64,000 bases of DNA, from the NCBI RefSeq assembly GCF_026248685.1, contig NZ_CP111037.1, positions 62,001 through 126,000 of the forward strand. The letters are read 5' to 3'. The notes beneath the pieces were generated by a model. The model searched no databases and was not told the origin of the DNA. It worked only from the letters and a program-made list of their open reading frames with translations. Both the position numbers and the translations under genes were made by a program. The DNA is from Haladaptatus caseinilyticus. GTDB taxonomy: Archaea; Halobacteriota; Halobacteria; Halobacteriales; Haladaptataceae. Shown piece by piece: positions 1 to 20,033 of this stretch (the stretch's first letter is position 1; each line of letters begins with the position of its first letter).

Positions 1-592
1 CGGCGTCCACGGATTCGGCGACTGATTCGGAATCAGTCGCCGAATCCGAATCAACGTCCAGTGCCGAAACGACCGCTCGAACCTGTCGATAGGCGTCCTC
101 CGGCCTTAGCGACCCGATTCCCGTGTTTGCTTCGATCCCTCGACCGTCCAATTCGACCACATCGAAGCCGGTCTCGTCCAGATACGACTCCTCCCGGTCG
201 TTCAGTTCGTCGGTGTAGGGGGTGACGACCACAATTCGCTCGGCACCGAGTGCCCGCAACGCGCGCTTGACCGACAGTGCGGTAGCCACGGCGGGAACAC
301 CCGCTGTTTCCGACAGCGACGCTTCGAGGTCGCTGTCGAAGCCCTTCCCGTGTAGGAGGCTTCCGGTCGTACAGGCGTAGGCGACGACATCGACGTTTGC
401 GTGGGACAGTCGGTCTGCACAGGAAACGGCGTCGTCCGCCATCGAATCCAGTTCTTCGACGGTAACCGATTCGAGCGGCATCCGTGCCGCGTGCAGACTC
501 GCCCCGTCGGATATCGTCTGCTCGAACTCGCCTTCGACCGTCGTGTTCGAGGACGGAACGATAACGCCGAGACGAGCGCGCCAACCGAACAT
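1..592 (-). CDS. Asp/Glu racemase / maleate isomerase family protein (3' end beyond window)
   Basis: Translated on the minus strand from ATG 592, the product begins MFGWRARLGVIVPSSNTTVE. This is the characteristic start of the maleate isomerase / arylmalonate decarboxylase / Asp-Glu racemase superfamily, with PSSNTTVE at residues 13-20 and a likely catalytic Cys74 in YACTTGS. The second half, with the partner Cys, lies beyond base 1. It starts 28 nt after the hyuB stop, with GAGGAAGG as ribosome-binding site; an in-frame GTG nine bases upstream is an alternative start. As last visible gene of the hydantoinase unit it could racemise hydantoins, isomerise a dicarboxylate or cleave an amide-derived acid; the exact reaction cannot be read. 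Oddly, the last visible residues are a Ser/Asp/Glu-rich stretch encoded by a perfect 39-bp palindrome (10-48). Confidence 0.8.
   Translation of the reverse strand, partial: MFGWRARLGVIVPSSNTTVEGEFEQTISDGASLHAARMPLESVTVEELDSMADDAVSCADRLSHANVDVVAYACTTGSLLHGKGFDSDLEASLSETAGVPAVATALSVKRALRALGAERIVVVTPYTDELNDREESYLDETGFDVVELDGRGIEANTGIGSLRPEDAYRQVRAVVSALDVDSDSATDSESVAESVDA
10..48. repeat. perfect 39-bp palindrome inside the racemase-family gene
   Basis: Left arm CGGATTCGGCGACTGATTC (10-28), one central G (29), right arm GAATCAGTCGCCGAATCCG (30-48). All 19 arm pairs match. On the coding (minus) strand it spells an acidic Ser/Asp/Glu stretch (SDSATDSESVAES) where family members normally run straight into the second half of the fold, so it looks like an in-frame insertion or expanded linker. 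Confidence 0.9.
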
Positions 593-620: not shown

Positions 621-2258
621 TCATTCGTCCCACTCCATCTTCCCGTCGGCGCGGTCACGTTCGATCTCCTCGGGGTCACGTTCGTCCGCGAGTCCGTGGC
701 CGCCACCACCAGGTGTGGCGACCGTAATCGTCGTTCCGGCGGGCACGTCGCGCGTCGTCTTCGCCGGAACGACCGTCCCCGCGATTCGGTTCTCGCCCGG
801 TTCGCCGTCGTCGCCCCCCGCGATTCCTCGCGGCGCGACACGGCGTCGCTCCGTCAGCAGCGACACCGTTGCGTCCGCTTCGACAGTAACCGAGCGAACG
901 ACGCCGAGACCACCCCGATGCTTGCCGCGTCCGCCGCTGTCTTCGCGGAGTCCGTACTCCTCCACGAACAGCGGGTACTCGGCTTCGAGGGCCTCGACCG
1001 GCGTGTTCAACGTGTTCGTCATCCCGACTTGTACGCCGTCCATTCCGTCCTTCGTCGGTCGTCCGCCGAACCCGCCCGCGATGGTCTCGTAGTAGGTAAA
1101 GCCGTCCTCGCCACCGTCTCGGCTCCCGATGGTGAGGTTGTTCATCGTCCCCTGTCCCTGTGCCGGGACCCGGTCCGGGGCGGCCTCCGCGAACGCGGTG
1201 AACACTACGTCCGTCACCCGTTGGCTGGTTTCGACGTTCCCCCCGACGACCGCTGCAGGAGGTCGCGGGTTCAACAGCGATCCATCCGGAACCGACACGG
1301 AAATCGGGTCGTAACAGCCTTGATTCGGTGGAATTTCGGGGTCTGTCACACACCGAATGACGAAGTAGACTGCGCTTTTCGCGACCGCGAGCGGCGCGTT
1401 CACGTTTCCGGCCACTTGTTCTGCGGTCCCGGCGAAATCGACCTCGATTCGCTCGCCATCGACCGTCACCGTCACCTCGATGGGTATCTCGTCATCGACG
1501 ACCCCGTCGCCTTCCATCACGTCTCGTGCGGTGTAGGTTCCATCCGGAAGGTCGGCCAGTTCGGCGCTGATGCGGTCGTGTGAATACTCCATCACGGCGT
1601 CGAAAGCGGCGACGACGCGTTCGTGTCCGTGTTCGCTCACGAGGTCGCCGAGTCGGTTCTCCGCCCGTTCGTTGGCCGCGATTTGTGCACGGATGTCCGC
1701 CCTGCGCTCGCCGGGGTTCCGGACGTTCGCGAGCAGGAGGTTCATCACGTCGTCGTTTACCTCCCCGCCGTTCACGAGTCTGACCGGCGGCAGTCGGATT
1801 CCCTCCTGATATATCTCACGCGCCCCGGCGGGCATGCTTCCGGGGGTCATCCCGCCGACGTCGGCGTGGTGTGCCCGGGAGACGGCGTAGCCAAGGATTT
1901 CATCGTCGATGGTGATGGGGGAAACCATCGTTACGTCGGGGAGGTGCGTGCCACCCTCGAACGGGTCGTTCAGCACGAACACGTCGCCCGGTTGAGGGTC
2001 GTATCGTAGTACCGTCGTCACTGCCGCGGGCATCGCGCCGAGGTGAACCGGAATGTGTTCCGCCTGCGCGACGAGTCTGCCCTCGGCATCGAACAACGCG
2101 GTCGAGCAGTCCCGTCGCTCCTTGATGTTCGGCGAGTACGACGAAGTGATGAGCACTTGTCCCATCTCCTCCGCGACGCTCTCGAACTGATTGCGCATGA
2201 TCTCGAGCGTCACAGGGTCGATGTCGTCCTCGAAACCGGTGTGGTTTTCGTCGCTCAT
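621..2258 (-). CDS. hyuB: hydantoinase B / 5-oxoprolinase, beta subunit
   Basis: This 545-aa protein is full length for the HyuB (hydantoinase_B) family. With HyuA it forms an ATP-dependent enzyme that opens cyclic amides such as hydantoins, N-methylhydantoin or 5-oxoproline; the acetone carboxylase subunits are relatives. Conserved blocks include DPVTLEIMRNQFESVAEEMG near the start, HIPVHLGAMP (about 68-77), NDPFEGGTHLPD (97-108) and SRAHHADVGGMTPGSM (127-142). Its ATG overlaps the hyuA stop by 4 nt (ATGA), so the two are translationally coupled. The substrate cannot be told from sequence. The family call is firm; hydantoin, oxoproline or another lactam remain open. Confidence 0.93.
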   Translation of the reverse strand: MSDENHTGFEDDIDPVTLEIMRNQFESVAEEMGQVLITSSYSPNIKERRDCSTALFDAEGRLVAQAEHIPVHLGAMPAAVTTVLRYDPQPGDVFVLNDPFEGGTHLPDVTMVSPITIDDEILGYAVSRAHHADVGGMTPGSMPAGAREIYQEGIRLPPVRLVNGGEVNDDVMNLLLANVRNPGERRADIRAQIAANERAENRLGDLVSEHGHERVVAAFDAVMEYSHDRISAELADLPDGTYTARDVMEGDGVVDDEIPIEVTVTVDGERIEVDFAGTAEQVAGNVNAPLAVAKSAVYFVIRCVTDPEIPPNQGCYDPISVSVPDGSLLNPRPPAAVVGGNVETSQRVTDVVFTAFAEAAPDRVPAQGQGTMNNLTIGSRDGGEDGFTYYETIAGGFGGRPTKDGMDGVQVGMTNTLNTPVEALEAEYPLFVEEYGLREDSGGRGKHRGGLGVVRSVTVEADATVSLLTERRRVAPRGIAGGDDGEPGENRIAGTVVPAKTTRDVPAGTTITVATPGGGGHGLADERDPEEIERDRADGKMEWDE

Positions 2259-4258
2259 TCGTCGTCACCTCCGGAGAGCGTGAGGGTTCCATCCACCTGT
2301 ACCGTGCCACTCCATGCTGGGGGAACGACGACGGTGCTCTCGTTCTGTTCGAGGATAGCGGGTCCCTCGACCGTCTGCCCCTCGTCGAGCCCGACGCGGT
2401 CGAACACGGGGGCCTCGTGGAACTGCTCGCCGAAGAAGACCTCGCGGGTTCCCTTTCTCGCACCGCCCGCGGTCCGATAGGAGACAGACAACGATTCGCG
2501 CTCGACGACTGCCGTCGCGCGGAGGTTCACGAGTTCTATTGGGTCGTCCATCGTGTAGCCGTACGTGTTCTCGTGCGCCTCGGCGAAGCGACCAGCGACG
2601 GCCTCCGCGTCGAACGATTCGCCGACCGGAACGGTGAGTTCGAAGCTCTGGCCCACGTATCGAAGGTCCGCGGCGCGACGAACGATGGCATCGTTCGGAT
2701 TCTCCACGTCCGCCAGCACGTCCTCCGTAAGGCCGTCGTACGTCGTTTCGATCGACTCCAGTGTGATTCCCGAGAGGTGGCTTCGGAGGGTTCGAACCGA
2801 GTCGTGTTTTTCGGCGGCGGCGAGCAGGCCGTAAGCCGACAGGACCCCGCAGGCGTGCGGGACGACGACTGAGTCCATATCCAACCCCTCCGCCAGCGCG
2901 GCGGCGTGCATCGGTCCTGCGCCGCCGAACGCGACGAGGCCGAATCCGCGGGGGTCGTGGCCTCGTTCGACCGTGACGGACCGAATCGCTCGCGTCATAT
3001 TCGCGTTGGCGACCCGGAAGACGCCGCGTGCGGCGTCGAGCGCGCTATCGAGTCCGGCTTCGTCGGCCAGTCGGGAGAGGGCATCGTGGGCCGCTTCCAC
3101 GTCGAGTTCGAGTTCGCCGCCGAGCGCCGAACTCCCGCCGATGTAGCCGAGGACGACGTTCGCGTCAGTGACCGTGGGCTTCGTTCCGCCCCGTCCGTAA
3201 CAGGCCGGGCCGGGGTTCGCCCCGGACGACTGCGGTCCGACTCGGAGCGCGCCTCCGGCGTCAACCCACGCGATCGACCCGCCACCTGCTCCGACTGTGT
3301 TCACGTCCACCATCGGGGTTTTGATGGGTCGGCCGTTGATCTCCGCGTTCGTCGTTCGTTCGACCTCGCCGTCACGAACGAGGCTCACGTCGCTCGACGT
3401 GCCACCCATGTCGAACGTGACCAGTCCGTCGAGGTCCCCGGTGGCGGTTTCCGCCGCGCCGACGACGCCCGCGGCGGGGCCGGACATCGTCGTGGTCACG
3501 GCATGTTCGCGCACGGTGCTGGCCGGGGCGATGCCGCCGTTGGCTTGCATGATTCGTGGGACGGGTACGCCGAGGGTTTCCGCACGCTCCTCCAACCGAC
3601 CGATGTAGGCGTCGATCGCTGGCGTGACGTAGGCATCGACGACCGTCGTCGATGTACGCTCGTATTCGCGAAACTCCGCGAGCACTTCGTGTGACGCGGA
3701 GACCGGAACGTCGAGTTCCTCGCGGAGGATTTCGGTAACGATCTGCTCGTTCTCTGGATGTTGATAGGCGTGCAGAAGCGCGACTGCGACGCTTTCCGCG
3801 TCGCAGTCGCGAACGTTACGTGCGATTTCGCGGATCTCGTCCTCGTCCGGGGCGACTCGGACGCCGACGATCGCGGTTCGCTCCTCCACTTCGAACCTGC
3901 GCCGTCGCGGAACGAGCGGTGCGGGTTTGTCCACGTTCACGTCGTAGAGGTCCGGTCGGGCCTGCCGCCCGATTTCGAGCACGTCGCGGAATCCCTCCGT
4001 GGTCACGAGGGCCGTCTCCGCGCCGTTCTCTTCGAGCAGCGCGTTGACGGAAACCGTCATCGCGTGGGTGAACACGTCCACGTCGCTCGGGTCGATTCCG
4101 GCCTCCTCGCAGGCTTTTTCGATGCCGGAGATGACGCCGACGCTCTGGTCGTCCGTGCTCGGGACTTTCGCCGTCACGAGCTCGTCGTCGGGCATGAGGA
4201 GAACCACGTCTGTGAAGGTGCCCCCCACATCGACACCGACGCGTGTATCGCCGCCCAT
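2255..4258 (-). CDS. hyuA: hydantoinase A / 5-oxoprolinase, alpha (ATPase) subunit
   Basis: 667 aa, the usual length for HyuA. The ASKHA-type phosphate-binding segment VDVGGTFTD is at residues 9-17, the second ATP block FDMGGTSSD at 282-290, with MSGPAAG at 258-264, VGAGGGSIAWVD at 322-333 and the family signature GPQSSGANPGPACYGRGG at 341-358. It activates the amide carbonyl with ATP before ring opening, acting with HyuB in the cytoplasm. It starts immediately after the stop codon of the NRAMP-like permease (TGA then ATG), showing that uptake and hydrolysis are expressed together. In the creatinine pathway the same family supplies N-methylhydantoinase, relevant because a creatininase-family gene lies 13 kb away. 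Confidence 0.93.
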   Translation of the reverse strand: MGGDTRVGVDVGGTFTDVVLLMPDDELVTAKVPSTDDQSVGVISGIEKACEEAGIDPSDVDVFTHAMTVSVNALLEENGAETALVTTEGFRDVLEIGRQARPDLYDVNVDKPAPLVPRRRRFEVEERTAIVGVRVAPDEDEIREIARNVRDCDAESVAVALLHAYQHPENEQIVTEILREELDVPVSASHEVLAEFREYERTSTTVVDAYVTPAIDAYIGRLEERAETLGVPVPRIMQANGGIAPASTVREHAVTTTMSGPAAGVVGAAETATGDLDGLVTFDMGGTSSDVSLVRDGEVERTTNAEINGRPIKTPMVDVNTVGAGGGSIAWVDAGGALRVGPQSSGANPGPACYGRGGTKPTVTDANVVLGYIGGSSALGGELELDVEAAHDALSRLADEAGLDSALDAARGVFRVANANMTRAIRSVTVERGHDPRGFGLVAFGGAGPMHAAALAEGLDMDSVVVPHACGVLSAYGLLAAAEKHDSVRTLRSHLSGITLESIETTYDGLTEDVLADVENPNDAIVRRAADLRYVGQSFELTVPVGESFDAEAVAGRFAEAHENTYGYTMDDPIELVNLRATAVVERESLSVSYRTAGGARKGTREVFFGEQFHEAPVFDRVGLDEGQTVEGPAILEQNESTVVVPPAWSGTVQVDGTLTLSGGDDE

Positions 4259-5476
4259 TCAGAGTACCCCCAAACTCTGTGCGACGCCGTAGAGCGAGCG
4301 AAGACCGAGCCAAACGACGATGAGCGTGACGACCACGCCGACGACGTTCTGTGCGGTGCTGTTTACGTACTTTCCGAGGATATCGCGGTCGTTCATCACG
4401 TAGATGAGGAAGAGGGCCACGATGGGAAGAAGGATACCGTTCGCGACTTGTGCGAAGACGATCGCCTGCACGGGACTGTAGCCGAGCCCGGAGAAGACGA
4501 TACCGATGAGTAGGATGGACCCCCAGACGGCGCGGAACTTCGTCGATTTGAGGTCGGTGTCCCAGCCGAGCGCACCAGCCGTGGCGTACGCACCGGCCAG
4601 CGGTGCCGTGGTCGCGCTCGTGAACCCGGCGGCGAAGAGACCGATCCCGAACAGGAAGGTCGCTTGTGGTCCGGCGAGCGGTTCTATCTGTTCCGCCATC
4701 TGGCTCACGTCGCTGATTTGGGTACCGACCGGGAACGCCGCCGCCGCGGTGACGAGGATGGCGATGGTGATGGCTCCCCCGATGAGAATTGAGAGTATCG
4801 TGTCGGCGCGCGATTCGCCCAGTTCGTCCGGCCCGGCCCACCGCTCTTGGACGCTACCGGCATGTAAGAAGAGGTTGTAGCCGACGACGGTGGTTCCGAT
4901 GAGGCCCGTGATGAGGAAGGTCGAGCCTTCGGGGACGCTCGGGACGAATCCCATCGCCAGGGAACCGAGGTCGGGACCGATGATTATCGCGTCGATGACG
5001 AACGAGACGGCCATGAGTCCGACGAGGAAAACGAGCGCTTTCTCGATGAGTTTGTAGCGCCCGGTCCACAACAGCGCGCCAGCACAGAGGCCCATCAATG
5101 GACCCCAGATGTTCGCGCTGATTCCCGTGACGCCTTCGAGTCCGGCGGCCCCGCCGAGGATGTTCCCGGTTTCGTAGGCCGCCGTCCCGATGCCGATCGC
5201 GCTCACGACGAGCGCGATGCTGATCGTGGAGAGTGCGGGGTTGTCGAACTGTTCTTTGAGCGCTTCGCCGAGACCTCTGCGCGAGACGACGCCCAAGCGG
5301 GCGCTCATCTCCTGGAGGACGATGGTGGCGATGATGGAGAACACGATGGTCCAGACGAGGGCGTAACCGAACTTCGCACCCGTCACGCTCGCAGTCGTTA
5401 CCGTTCCGGGGCCGATGAATGCCGCCGCGACCATCGCGCCCGGCCCGATGGATTGTAGCCTATCTATAATGTTCAT
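4259..5476 (-). CDS. NRAMP-like permease lacking metal-binding motifs
   Basis: A membrane protein with about 11 TM segments and the NRAMP/LeuT fold: ARLGVVSR after TM2 and a TM1 aligning with NRAMP. The metal site is gone. The TM1 motif DPGN is GPGT (FIGPGTVTTAS), and the TM6 motif MPHN is VGYN (GTTVVGYNLFLHAG). In characterised NRAMPs the TM1 Asp and Asn and TM6 Met bind Mn/Fe, so a metal role is doubtful. It is joined directly to hyuA. I infer import of the hydantoinase substrate (pyroglutamate, hydantoin or similar). Bacillus subtilis YcsG, an NRAMP-family protein, sits in the 5-oxoprolinase (pxp) locus, a parallel. ATG 5503 is also possible, but a TATA-like ATTTAAG at 5516-5522 on the minus strand would place transcription start downstream of it, favouring 5476. 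Confidence 0.88.
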   Translation of the reverse strand: MNIIDRLQSIGPGAMVAAAFIGPGTVTTASVTGAKFGYALVWTIVFSIIATIVLQEMSARLGVVSRRGLGEALKEQFDNPALSTISIALVVSAIGIGTAAYETGNILGGAAGLEGVTGISANIWGPLMGLCAGALLWTGRYKLIEKALVFLVGLMAVSFVIDAIIIGPDLGSLAMGFVPSVPEGSTFLITGLIGTTVVGYNLFLHAGSVQERWAGPDELGESRADTILSILIGGAITIAILVTAAAAFPVGTQISDVSQMAEQIEPLAGPQATFLFGIGLFAAGFTSATTAPLAGAYATAGALGWDTDLKSTKFRAVWGSILLIGIVFSGLGYSPVQAIVFAQVANGILLPIVALFLIYVMNDRDILGKYVNSTAQNVVGVVVTLIVVWLGLRSLYGVAQSLGVL

Positions 5477-5566
5477 GGTTCTTGTCGTGCTATGCTGTCT
5501 CAACCCACGATTTGAACTTAAATCCCCCCTAAGAACGGTGTGTACTGCTGTCTATGGGGAGTGACG

Positions 5567-5606
5567 ATCGTATGAACGAGTATGAAATCGTAAGAACCAC
5601 TCATAC
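5567..5606. promoter_or_regulatory. probable operator: phased GTATGA half-sites
   Basis: GTATGA occurs at 5570-5575 and 5580-5585, exactly one helical turn apart, followed by the inverted copy TCATAC at 5601-5606. The outer copies form an 8-bp inverted repeat TCGTATGA...TCATACGA, and ATCGTA repeats at 5567 and 5587. The cluster lies between the RHH regulator gene and the permease, upstream of the permease TATA-like box. Short, helically phased half-sites are what ribbon-helix-helix dimers bind, so the neighbouring RHH protein is the obvious candidate. Confidence 0.55.
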
Positions 5607-5640: not shown

Positions 5641-6189
5641 TCAATCCTCCCGAACCTCCGTGATGAGCACCTTCGAAACGCCTTCCTCGATCTCGAGTTC
5701 GAACGGCAGTCTGGCCGTACTCAATTCGATGAATCGCATCATGAACCACTTCACCGATTCGGTCGGAAACACCACGTGGTAGGTGTTCCCTCGCGTCGCA
5801 CGAACGGTCAAAAACCCGCACAGCGACAGCCAATCGAGGAGTTCGCCGAGGGTATCGAATCGATGTTCGTACTCTCGGGCGTGATACTCGGAGACCTTGT
5901 CCGCCTGTTCCAGGAAGTCGGGGTTCGGTTCGCCCGTTTCGTTTTCGACGTAGTCCAGAAAGCAGTGAAGGAAATCCACGTCGAGCAGAACGTGTTCGCC
6001 GCTCGATAGCATCTGATGATACGCCTCGAGGTTTTCACCGGCATCCGCCGTCGCCGCGTCGTAGTTCGCGGCGTAGAAGGTGAGTGCCTGCCTGACGAGT
6101 TCGCTCTGGGGCTTGTCGGCCTGTCCGACGAGGTTGTCGAGTGCCGTCTGTGCGTCGTCGTCCAGCGACACCGTGATACGGTTCGTCAT
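5641..6189 (-). CDS. ribbon-helix-helix (CopG/MetJ/Arc-type) regulator with C-terminal domain
   Basis: 182 aa. Residues 3-45 (RITVSLDDDAQTALDNLVGQ, then SELVRQALTFYA) are a standard RHH DNA-binding domain: one beta strand pairing in the dimer, then two helices. Residues about 50-182 form a larger acidic domain of a kind seen in haloarchaeal CopG-like regulators and probably used for sensing; I see no recognisable ligand motif. It lies just upstream of, and in the same direction as, the permease-hyuA-hyuB-racemase unit, separated by 165 nt that carry phased GTATGA half-sites. I infer that it controls the cyclic-amide genes, perhaps autogenously. Confidence 0.8.
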   Translation of the reverse strand: MTNRITVSLDDDAQTALDNLVGQADKPQSELVRQALTFYAANYDAATADAGENLEAYHQMLSSGEHVLLDVDFLHCFLDYVENETGEPNPDFLEQADKVSEYHAREYEHRFDTLGELLDWLSLCGFLTVRATRGNTYHVVFPTESVKWFMMRFIELSTARLPFELEIEEGVSKVLITEVRED

Positions 6190-16928: not shown

Positions 16929-17735
16929 ATGTACCTCGCCGACAAGACGTGGCCGGAACTGGGCGACTACGTCGCCGAAGAATCCGTCGCAGTCGTGCCG
17001 CTGGGTTCGACCGAACAGCACGGTCCGCATCTGCCGCTCGCGACCGATCACCTCATCGCGGAAGCGCTAGCACGGGAGGCCGCGGACCGAACGGGCTACC
17101 TCTGCACGCCGACGATAAACGTCGGCGTCAGTCCCCATCACAAGCAGTTCCACGGAACGATGTGGGTCGATGCACGGGCGTTCCGAGAGTACGTTGAAAG
17201 CTTCACACGGAACCTCACATATCACGGTATCGACCGCGTCGTGTACGTCAACGCCCATGGCGGCAACATGCAGCACCTCCGTGAGGTCGGTCGGCGACTT
17301 CGCGAGGACGAAGTCGCCTTCGCCGTCGAATGGATGTGGGATGAGTCGATTCCCGACCTCGTGAGTGATCTGTTTGAATACAACGGCCCCCACGGTGGGC
17401 CAAAGGAGACGGCGATGATCATGCACATCGCGGGCGAGTTGGTCCGAACGGATCAACTCGCGAACGCGCGGGACGGTGGTTTGGCCGACCTCCGTGACGG
17501 AAACTTTACGATTCACGGTGCACGCAACTACTACGACGCGATCGACAACACGGAAAACGGGGTGCTCGGCGACCAGACCGACGCGACACCCGAGAAAGGT
17601 GAAAAAATCTTCGAGGCGGCGACGGAACAACTCGTCTCCCTCCTCGAGTGGTTGGACGGTGCGCGATTTTCGGATTTGATGGCGAAACCGCACGTCGAAC
17701 CGCAACCCGGCAGTCGGTGCGAGTATGCGCCGTGA
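16929..17735 (+). CDS. creatininase-family amidohydrolase
   Basis: 268 aa, usual family length. Metal ligands and core are visible: PLGSTEQHGPHLPLATDH (residues 24-41, with Glu29, His31, Asp40) and YVNAHGGNMQH (106-116, His110), then NGPHGGPKETAMIMH. The family includes creatinine amidohydrolase, MftE and the archaeal riboflavin/F420 deformylase ArfB. A TATA-like AATTTTATGC 27 bp before ATG 16929 indicates a leaderless transcript. Directly downstream is an NRAMP-like permease without metal motifs, parallel to the hydantoinase locus, which favours a catabolic cyclic-amide role. ArfB is the main alternative. Confidence 0.88.
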   Translation: MYLADKTWPELGDYVAEESVAVVPLGSTEQHGPHLPLATDHLIAEALAREAADRTGYLCTPTINVGVSPHHKQFHGTMWVDARAFREYVESFTRNLTYHGIDRVVYVNAHGGNMQHLREVGRRLREDEVAFAVEWMWDESIPDLVSDLFEYNGPHGGPKETAMIMHIAGELVRTDQLANARDGGLADLRDGNFTIHGARNYYDAIDNTENGVLGDQTDATPEKGEKIFEAATEQLVSLLEWLDGARFSDLMAKPHVEPQPGSRCEYAP

Positions 17736-17880: not shown

Positions 17881-17908
17881 CCGATGACGTGTGATGAGGC
17901 AACTATCA

Positions 17909-19198
17909 ATGGAAACGAAGCCAGGTCGGGAAACGAAGAGTTCCTATGGAAGTCGGTTCCGCGACGCAACGACTGGGTTTTTCCAGAAGTACGGACTCGG
18001 GTTCGTGATGGTGGCGAGCTACTTCGGCTCCGGTTCTGTATTCATCGCCAGTTCCGCCGGTGTTCGGTACGGATATGGCCTCCTTTGGGCCGTCGTCGGG
18101 GCGGTTCTGCTGGGATTCATGGCACAGGATATGAGTGCACGGCTGGGGATCTTCGGCGAACCGCTCATGGCGTTCGTCCGTCGAAAAATCGGTCCGACCG
18201 GTGCGACGGTGATCGCCGCCGTTCTATCCATCGGCTGTGTCGCGTGGACCCTCGAACTCACCGCAGCGGTCGGAAAAGGTGTCTCGATACTCCTCGGTGG
18301 TGCGGTCGGTTGGCAGCCCCTCGCGCTGGTGACGGGACTCCTCGCCATCCTCATCGGCGTGCTGAACTACGACGGGGTGGAGCGCATCATGACTGCCATG
18401 ATGCTCGCTTTGCTCGTCATTTACATGGGTGTCGCAGGCGTGAGCAGTCCCTCGATGGCGGACGTCGCGGGCGGATTCGTTCCCTCAGTTCCCGTCGGTG
18501 GAGCGTTGACGCTCGCGGCCGCTATCATCGGGACGACCGCGCTGTGGCCGAACTTCTTCCTCGAATCGAACCTCGTGGACAAAAAGGGTTGGGTCGGTGA
18601 GGAAGGCGTCTCTGAGATGCGTCGTGACCTCGGAATCGGCTATCTCGTTGGTGGCCTGACGACAGTGGCGATCGTGGTCGTCGCCGCGGCGGTTCTGCGT
18701 CCTGCTGGGTACACCGAACTGGAGACGTTCATCACGCCGGGCCGAGCGCTTGCCGACGTGTTCGGCGAGTGGGCGATGATCGTCTTTCTCCTCGGAACCC
18801 TCGCGGCGGCGTTCAACAGTATCGTGCCGATAATGTGGACGCCTGCCTATCTCCTCCAGAACGCACGCGGACGAGTCGCCGATAGCGCGACCCGCGAGTT
18901 CAAGATCATCTACGCGGTCGGCGTCGGTATCGGAAGCCTCTCCCCACTTGTACACCAGTTCGCGGGACTGAGTGTTATCGACATGATACTCTTGTTTCCG
19001 GCGTACAACGCCATCGTCGGTTTGCCAATCACGGCGATCTTGTTGTTCTGGGCGGTAAATGACCGGAACACGATGGGAGAACACCGAAACGGGATGGCGC
19101 TGACAGCGGTGAACTTCCTGCTCGTCCTCCTCTCGGCGTATCTCGCCGTGACGTCGCTCCCTGGATTCATCGACGCACTGACCTCGGGCGGTCTCTAA
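17909..19198 (+). CDS. second NRAMP-like permease lacking metal-binding motifs
   Basis: 429 aa from ATG 17909, which has GAGG about 10 nt upstream; GTG 17891 and ATG 17894 are in frame. About 11 TM helices. TM1 reads SYFGSGSVFIASS, so DPGN is GSGS (residues 40-43). TM6 reads GTTALWPNFFLES, so MPHN is LWPN. It shares MSARLG and GFVPSVP with the permease next to hyuA, so both belong to one metal-site-free branch. It follows the creatininase-family gene and precedes a TauE/SafE exporter, all rightward. I infer import of the amidohydrolase substrate; metal transport is unlikely. An inverted repeat at 17832-17880 may regulate it. Confidence 0.88.
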   Translation: METKPGRETKSSYGSRFRDATTGFFQKYGLGFVMVASYFGSGSVFIASSAGVRYGYGLLWAVVGAVLLGFMAQDMSARLGIFGEPLMAFVRRKIGPTGATVIAAVLSIGCVAWTLELTAAVGKGVSILLGGAVGWQPLALVTGLLAILIGVLNYDGVERIMTAMMLALLVIYMGVAGVSSPSMADVAGGFVPSVPVGGALTLAAAIIGTTALWPNFFLESNLVDKKGWVGEEGVSEMRRDLGIGYLVGGLTTVAIVVVAAAVLRPAGYTELETFITPGRALADVFGEWAMIVFLLGTLAAAFNSIVPIMWTPAYLLQNARGRVADSATREFKIIYAVGVGIGSLSPLVHQFAGLSVIDMILLFPAYNAIVGLPITAILLFWAVNDRNTMGEHRNGMALTAVNFLLVLLSAYLAVTSLPGFIDALTSGGL

Positions 19199-19210
19199 CG
19201 ACTGAGACGA

Positions 19211-19984
19211 ATGCTTCCCGACCCGACAACGCTGGCGGTCCTGGTCGTCATTGCGTTTCTGTCCGGTATCGGAATCACGGCCGTCGGACCAGGTGGTATT
19301 TTCATCACGGTCGCCCTGTTCGCACTGACGGACGTTTCGTCGTCGGTCGTCGCAGGAACTGCGATGACGACCTTTGTTTTCACGGGTGTGCTTGGAAGTC
19401 TTACGTACCTTCAGTCCGGTGAACTACGCTCTACGTCGGGGAGACGGCTCGCAGCCCTCGTAACGCTTCCGAGCGTAGTCGGCGCTATTGCCGGGGCGTT
19501 CGCCAACACGGTCCTTTCTGATGGCCTATTCGGAATCATGTTGACCGGATTTACCATGCTGGTTGGAACGAGTATCGTCTATCGGGAGCAACGGGGTCTG
19601 GATTCAAAATGGTCGTTTCGAACAGATTCGACACTCGGAATCCTCGTTTTCGGCGTTCTCGGCTTCTGTATCGGTTTCTTGGGTGGACTGCTCGGCGTCG
19701 GCGGGCCCGTCATCGCCGTTCCTGTCCTCGTCGTCCTCGGCGTTTCGATGCTCGACGCACTGGCAGCCGCGCAAGTGCAGTCTGTGTTCCTTTCTGCGTT
19801 TGCCGCCTCGACATACCTGATGGAGGGTGCTGTGTCGATTCCGTTGGCCGTCGCCATCGGTGTTCCCGAACTGGCAGGCGTCGTCGTCGGGTGGCGGGTC
19901 GCTCATTTCATCGACCCATCCCGTTTGAAACTTGCGCTCGGTGGTTCACTCGTCGCTGCCGGGTTCGCGCTCATTTTTTCGTAA
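19211..19984 (+). CDS. TauE/SafE family anion exporter
   Basis: 257 aa, eight predicted TM helices in two repeats, each with the family Gly-rich turn: GIGITAVGPGGIFITVALF near the start and FLGGLLGVGGPVIAVPVLVV in the middle. The family exports sulfite, sulfoacetate or related organic anions. It begins 12 nt after the second NRAMP-like gene and is likely co-transcribed with the creatininase-family gene. It may export a product (for example sulfite or a carboxylate), but no sulfonate-degrading gene is adjacent. It is convergent with the DHH gene. Confidence 0.88.
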   Translation: MLPDPTTLAVLVVIAFLSGIGITAVGPGGIFITVALFALTDVSSSVVAGTAMTTFVFTGVLGSLTYLQSGELRSTSGRRLAALVTLPSVVGAIAGAFANTVLSDGLFGIMLTGFTMLVGTSIVYREQRGLDSKWSFRTDSTLGILVFGVLGFCIGFLGGLLGVGGPVIAVPVLVVLGVSMLDALAAAQVQSVFLSAFAASTYLMEGAVSIPLAVAIGVPELAGVVVGWRVAHFIDPSRLKLALGGSLVAAGFALIFS

Positions 19985-20033
19985 TCTCGATACGGAGACC
20001 GGGAAGGTGGTGTCCGGCACACCCTGGCGCGTG

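Follow-up and report, generated by a model that had tools for sequence, protein, structure and literature searches.

Does a permease of the NRAMP family that lacks the residues of the metal site still move metals, or does its place beside lactamase genes point to an organic substrate? The question arises in the window, i.e. the 64,000 nucleotides of Haladaptatus caseinilyticus that we analysed (contig NZ_CP111037.1, positions 62,001 to 126,000), where the gene of such a permease directly precedes genes of the hydantoinase/oxoprolinase type. Published claims on the NRAMP proteins of 5-oxoprolinase (pxp) operons are in conflict, since one is of manganese import (PMC10448178) and the other of 5-oxoproline import (PMC13274462). 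The clade of the window permease is a second, independent one in which the enzyme is swapped and the residue signature is sharp, so that the choice between manganese and 5-oxoproline can be tested directly. From sequence and gene context, we predict that the permease of the window imports 5-oxoproline (pyroglutamate), whose ring would then be opened to glutamate, and we give this reading a probability of roughly 60%.

The permease gene and its altered site

The cluster lies on the minus strand. Its first gene encodes an RHH/CopG-type regulator of 182 residues (5641..6189; PF01402, E = 6.4e-7). The permease gene follows (4259..5476; 405 residues, PF01566), from an ATG at 5476 to a TGA at 4259-4261; the frame is open further upstream to a TTG at 5503, and the ATG is the sensible start. 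Then come hyuA, for the ATP-binding (alpha) subunit of the ATP-dependent lactamase family (2255..4258; 667 residues; PF05378, PF01968 and PF19278), hyuB, for the metal-binding, ring-opening (beta) subunit (621..2258; 545 residues; PF02538, E = 4e-211), and a gene for an Amdase/Asp-Glu-hydantoin-racemase-like protein of 253 residues (1..592 and a further 169 bases past the left window edge, C2:61831-62592 in whole-genome coordinates; PF17645, E = 2.5e-35, and PF01177, E = 9e-9). The genes are tightly packed. As the original prediction stated, the permease stop is followed at once by the hyuA start, whose ATG begins at 4258 (TGAATG), and hyuA and hyuB share 4 bp at the hyuA stop. The expression 'fused by position' is apt for adjoining genes of an operon, but there is no fusion of the proteins.

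The two substitutions that singled out this gene were read correctly. TM1 (FIGPGTVTT) has GPGT instead of DPGN at residues 22-25 (5402..5413), and TM6 (GTTVVGYNLFLH) has VGYN instead of MPHN at residues 198-201 (4874..4885). The NRAMP frame is otherwise kept, as the permease matches PF01566 over the full profile (E = 1.6e-97). It falls below the NCBIfam cut-off for MntH (187.7 bits versus 430, NF001923) and below that of the Nramp subfamily (102.5 versus 272.5 bits, TIGR01197); the only NCBIfam cut-off that it passes is that of the broad NF037982 ('Nramp_1'). Its AlphaFold model, built from 49 window and locus sequences, has a mean pLDDT of 90.5 and a pTM of 0.89. In this model, TM1 is broken at the motif (helices 12-20 and 23-36), and TM6 is split into helices 186-196 and 199-212. 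The nearest solved folds are those of DraNramp, EleNRMT and BfraNramp (TM 0.79-0.84, 25-29% identity), and the next matches, within the same superfold, are carriers of amino acids and hydantoins, e.g. LAT1, ApcT and Mhp1. The modelled fold is not enough to settle the substrate. The protein thus has the PF01566 homology and the LeuT/Nramp fold of a canonical NRAMP/SLC11 transporter, but neither the TM1 ligands of DPGN nor the TM6 A..MPH, which reads T..V.Y. It also differs from the NRMT magnesium transporters (DxxG in TM1, TxxA/T in TM6) by its GxxT-TxxV pattern, and falls in a separate branch.

We then compared 122 relatives of the permease with 38 canonical NRAMPs, using DraNramp as the alignment reference. 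Residues D56, N59, A227, M230, H232 and E134 of DraNramp become G, T, T, V, Y and N, respectively, in essentially all clade members, and the Gly and Thr of TM1 and the Val and Tyr of TM6 are present in 122 out of 122. The TM1 Asp and the TM6 Met and His occur in none of the 122 relatives and in all 38 canonical proteins. The aligned members have no conserved acidic residue at the pocket, while the TM10 Gln (Q378) and the TM6 His237 are retained. Since these substitutions are found in essentially the whole clade and the gene neighbourhood is kept across haloarchaeal genera, what we observe in the window is not due to chance.

Gene neighbourhoods in haloarchaea and bacteria

Orthologues of the permease (E ≤ 1e-60) are present in 85 of 292 haloarchaeal genomes and in 29 of 77 genera. 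We took 40 loci across the identity range of 55-90%, one of which ends at a contig end, leaving 39 informative ones. In 36 of these, hyuA and then hyuB lie 3' of the permease on the same strand, and gaps between the operon genes range from overlaps to 156 bp. Co-transcription of the permease and hyuAB seems probable. In Haloferax mediterranei ATCC 33500, the permease (E6P09_RS16855), hyuA (RS16860) and hyuB (RS16865) are encoded on pHME505. The Amdase/Asp-Glu-racemase-like gene is present in 30 of the 39. Three loci depart from the pattern. In L047, hyuAB is about 3 kb away on the opposite strand. In L080 (Natrononativus), the RHH gene and the permease stand alone, with pxpA elsewhere in the genome. 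In L079, which has a divergent orthologue, hyuAB is missing; the locus has a racemase-like and a creatininase-family gene, and genes of the M20 and arginase families lie close by, a possible case of enzyme replacement. The glutamate dehydrogenases that flank the operon in Haloarcula hispanica are not a general feature, as such genes do not turn up in as many as four of the haloarchaeal loci.

The operon was predicted to be regulated, and this looks to be the case. An RHH gene lies within 37 of the 40 haloarchaeal loci. The motif TTCAYAC (tandem unit TTCAYACNNN) is present in 36 of 43 haloarchaeal intergenic regions between the RHH gene and the permease, with 64 sites in the 43 regions against 1.6 in shuffles, and 18 neighbouring pairs are spaced by exactly 10 bp. 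In the window, the tandem repeat of 10-bp period is at 5570..5599; its units read gtatgaacga, gtatgaaatc and gtaagaacca on the plus strand, which is TTCATACNNN in the direction of transcription. These repeats look like an operator, for which the RHH protein is the candidate ligand.

We also scanned about 85,000 species genomes with patterns based on the motifs only, i.e. neighbour genes played no part in the choice. This yielded 80 relatives with 45-71% identity to the query; low-salt bacterial members with GPGT occur in Kangiella, Microbulbifer and Alkalihalobacillus. By far the commonest neighbours, encoded on the permease strand, are pxpA, pxpB and pxpC, with 30 loci each. One or more of the three adjoin the permease in 31 of the 80 loci, including one in Streptomyces, and the pxp-linked loci span Bacteroidota, Gammaproteobacteria, Bacillota and Actinomycetota. 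Gene order differs between these phyla (permease-A-B-C, permease-B-A-C, B-C-A-permease and A-x-permease-B-C), which suggests repeated assembly. In two Bacteroidota (L105 and L107), the permease is beside a fused HyuAB of 1252 residues, and pxpA was not found in either genome. Three more loci are haloarchaeal hyu loci, and 44, mostly from Alteromonadales and relatives, have no lactamase neighbour. Lactamase neighbours occur in 75 of the 122 clade loci and in none of the 38 canonical DPGN/MPH loci (Fisher exact test, 2.6e-13), a test that ignores shared descent and in which several canonical loci cover just about 1.5 kb per side. Hence, the expectation that homologues without the motifs neighbour amide hydrolases holds for the clade when set against canonical NRAMPs, but not for the 44 loci without such a neighbour.

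We also considered the co-occurrence of solitary permeases with pxpA. The latter is present in 34 of 35 genomes with a solitary permease, compared with 15 of 185 for the class. We rejected this as strong evidence because it largely results from shared ancestry: 116 of 129 Alteromonadaceae encode pxpA. Within this family, pxpA is found in 68 of 71 genomes with the permease and in 48 of 58 without it (p = 0.019), which is weakly informative.

Creatininase genes had also been proposed as neighbours of the motif-lacking homologues, and this did not generalize. The window has a creatininase-family gene (16930-17733, plus strand) directly upstream of another NRAMP-related permease (17892-19199, plus strand; FGSGS in TM1, ALWPN in TM6), and a TauE-like gene comes next (19212-19985). 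Among 25 loci of this paralogue family, we saw the creatininase pair in the two Haladaptatus genomes alone, and a TauE-like neighbour more often. Contig C6 carries two more NRAMP-related genes without DPGN (L008 and L009): one has GPAT in TM1 and lies beside a probable sodium:solute symporter gene, and the other, of the GSGS type, has a TauE-like gene after it. DPGN is absent from all four full-length PF01566 proteins that the genome encodes.

The GPGT/VxYN proteins group in a single clade, separate from the canonical and the NRMT-like ones (support of 98 in a first tree). In a more careful tree, the node of the wider clade with L232 has support of 84/57, and the rest of the clade 95/93. The haloarchaeal hyu group (100/99) has as its sister Natroniella, a halophilic member of Bacillota with pxp genes (100/82), and Alkalihalobacillus, also with pxp genes, branches next (99/86). 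Because the haloarchaeal group is nested beside pxp-linked Bacillota, haloarchaea seem to have obtained the permease from salt-adapted Bacillota, with a change of partner from PxpABC to HyuAB; the direction and the date of this transfer are what we infer from the branching.

Candidate substrates

Two unrelated ATP-dependent lactamases, PxpABC and HyuAB, accompany a single permease clade. The substrate common to the two families is 5-oxoproline, which makes it the likeliest one for the permease, so that the cyclic amides of the original prediction are better narrowed, if provisionally, to this compound. Both the substrate and the direction of transport are proposals. The permease would be a LeuT-fold secondary carrier for the uptake of 5-oxo-L-proline, from an NRAMP-related clade that does not move metals. 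HyuAB, presumably co-transcribed, would use ATP to open the ring and yield glutamate, the racemase-like product of the fourth gene may handle stereoisomers, and the RHH protein would bind the tandem TTCAYACNNN sites to regulate the operon. In amino acid carriers of the APC superfamily, the backbone amides of a G-x-G in TM1 hold the carboxylate of the substrate. The GPG of the permease resembles this element and, by analogy, we hypothesize that the TM1 break G-P-G-T, where metal NRAMPs offer Asp and Asn, would hold the carboxylate of 5-oxoproline. The Asn of TM3 (position of E134) and the Thr and Tyr of TM6 (positions of A227 and H232) would touch the lactam ring. There is a probable precedent for the enzyme in archaea: Sulfolobus acidocaldarius grows on pyroglutamate, extracts of Sulfolobaceae have 5-oxoprolinase activity, and HyuAB homologues with two subunits are the candidates for this activity (PMC6507225).

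On another contig (L246, contig C5, ~394-398 kb), the same genome encodes a separate pxpABC set, accompanied by a biotin-carboxylase-like gene but by no NRAMP-related permease. HyuAB would consequently be a second 5-oxoprolinase, and this redundancy is one of the reasons to consider that the permease imports another cyclic amide, e.g. a hydantoin, another lactam or an imide, whose ring HyuAB opens with the fourth gene as an analogue of hydantoin racemase. The best matches of HyuA in the PDB are N-methylhydantoinase (467 bits) and the caprolactamase subunit CapA (387 bits), and HyuB too matches N-methylhydantoinase, its best hit, and caprolactamase better than other solved relatives, in a compared set that holds no 5-oxoprolinase. 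The fourth gene belongs to the Asp/Glu/hydantoin-racemase and Amdase families, and locus L079 has creatininase-family, M20 hydrolase and arginase-family genes in place of hyuAB. We nevertheless regard this alternative as unlikely. The usual haloarchaeal operon has no N-carbamoylase gene, though hydantoin breakdown would need one; in bacteria, members of the clade are partnered with pxpABC, which is known to act on 5-oxoproline; and hydantoins would offer no carboxylate for a G-x-G in TM1 to hold.

It is less probable still that the permease imports divalent metals through its altered site and feeds Mn, Zn or Mg to the metal-dependent hydrolase. Such a role has been claimed for two proteins with comparable neighbours. 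Overexpression of YcsG raised cellular Mn and a triple mutant mntH mntA ycsG could not be made, and the protein was called a Mn importer and renamed MntG in 2023 (PMC10448178); MumT, from an operon with allophanate-hydrolase-like genes, was also reported to import Mn (PMC5050338). The enzyme partnership does not by itself exclude metal transport, as these reports show. NRMTs, including EleNRMT, move Mg and Mn through sites without the canonical motif (PMC8806188). Moreover, all four metal ligands of CapB (Asp41, His99, Asp102 and His124) are conserved in the aligned HyuB, and the permease retains Q378 and His237. Yet all characterized metal-moving branches keep the TM1 Asp, whether DxxN-AxxM, the aluminium-moving DxxN-AxxT (NRAT) or the magnesium-moving DxxG-TxxA/T (PMC8806188), and this residue is Gly in every one of the 122 clade members, with the Met, the His and the TM3 Glu replaced as well. 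No canonical metal NRAMP among the 38 sampled has neighbours of this kind. In Corynebacterium glutamicum, PxpT is required for growth on 5-oxoproline, with complementation of the mutant, and cells without it fail to grow on this compound despite intact enzyme genes (PMC13274462, 2026). The original prediction of cyclic amides rather than metals is thus favoured by the clade-wide motif loss and by the links to hyuAB and pxpABC, while its exclusion of metals is not established in view of the YcsG report and the NRMTs. The label 'Nramp family divalent metal transporter', carried by clade members in public plasmid records, is probably wrong.

Finally, it is very improbable that the permease works as an exporter or moves the amino acid product (e.g. 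glutamate) instead of the cyclic substrate: context alone does not give the direction and many Alteromonadales have a clade member without an adjacent lactamase, but operons that start with a permease and combine a local regulator with enzymes of catabolism usually serve uptake, and deletion of PxpT blocks growth on external 5-oxoproline (PMC13274462).

Relation to known transporters and lactamases

The original report of a role for ycsG is said to be that of Niehaus in 2017. YcsG had been taken to belong to the same branch as the window permease, which our analysis contradicts. We searched for its sequence among solved chains and did not find it there. The integrative model of YcsG (PDB 9a52) is 21% identical to the window permease, whereas members of the permease's clade are at least 43% identical, which places YcsG outside. 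A second, distant NRAMP-related clade is present in Bacilli (L199-L218), with GPGF or GPAF in TM1, FNIGN in TM3 and GTVGGYI in TM6, and scores about 80 bits against PF01566. Thirteen of its classified sequences sit with pxpABC, and in L211 the order pxpA-permease-gap-pxpB-pxpC is that of B. subtilis. Based on this gene order and on the identity of the 9a52 model, YcsG most likely belongs to the GPGF clade, and hence probably so does PxpT, which is 50% identical to YcsG (PMC13274462). One Alkalihalobacillus genome carries both permease types, each next to its own pxp set. The G-P of TM1, the Asn of TM3 and the Tyr of TM6 are common to the GPGT and GPGF clades. The TM10 Asn (N346), which the window permease's clade shares with the YcsG-type clade, was discarded as a substrate signature, because it also occurs in NRMT-like proteins.

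The closest description of the permease's own clade is that of the Slc11 'orphan' outgroup, or 'Nramp-related proteins'. The YETGN of TM3 and the TTVVGYN of TM6 match, by description, the substitutions given for this outgroup (PMC10606218), i.e. Tyr and Asn in TM3 and Thr, Val and Tyr in TM6, in the portions available of PMC10606218, PMC9606685 and PMC12873925; the same portions give neither a substrate nor an operon context. If our reading is true, this outgroup would gain a substrate. Nramp-related proteins are reported to be paraphyletic to canonical NRAMPs (PMC12873925), so the metal selectivity of NRAMPs may stem from an APC carrier of organic solutes (lactam or amino acid). We tentatively suggest, as an idea that may well prove wrong, that one branch of the NRAMP fold, widespread and not concerned with metals, carries a carboxylated lactam via G-P-G and swaps its enzymatic partner, PxpABC in bacteria and HyuAB in haloarchaea. 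The locus bears on the evolution of metal selectivity from organic-solute transport, and on the use of pyroglutamate by haloarchaea.

Compared with known systems, the permease has the fold of the canonical NRAMP/MntH proteins DraNramp and BfraNramp (TM 0.79-0.84, ~25-28% identity) and, across its clade, their TM10 Gln and TM6 His237, but none of their TM1 and TM6 metal ligands nor the acidic residue of the TM3 proton path. EleNRMT also has a non-canonical site and a similar fold (29% identity), but keeps the TM1 Asp (DAGG) and belongs to a separate clade. A close parallel is offered by PxpT of C. glutamicum and YcsG of B. subtilis, which also have the PF01566 fold, have a 5-oxoprolinase as neighbour and, in the YcsG-type clade, lack DPGN/MPH. 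Their partner is PxpABC, which bacterial members of the window permease's clade also have, whereas the window permease is beside HyuAB, of a 5-oxoprolinase-type family. NRAMP-family uptake of 5-oxoproline has already been reported, in 2026, for another clade; here, the permease clade and the enzyme are different and the regulator is archaeal. The enzyme itself resembles the HyuAB/CapAB ATP-dependent lactamases in its two subunits, its Pfam domains and the Asp-His-Asp-His metal site of the B subunit. Our literature search found no paper on both NRAMP and hydantoinase, and what sets the haloarchaeal version apart is its pairing with an NRAMP-related permease.
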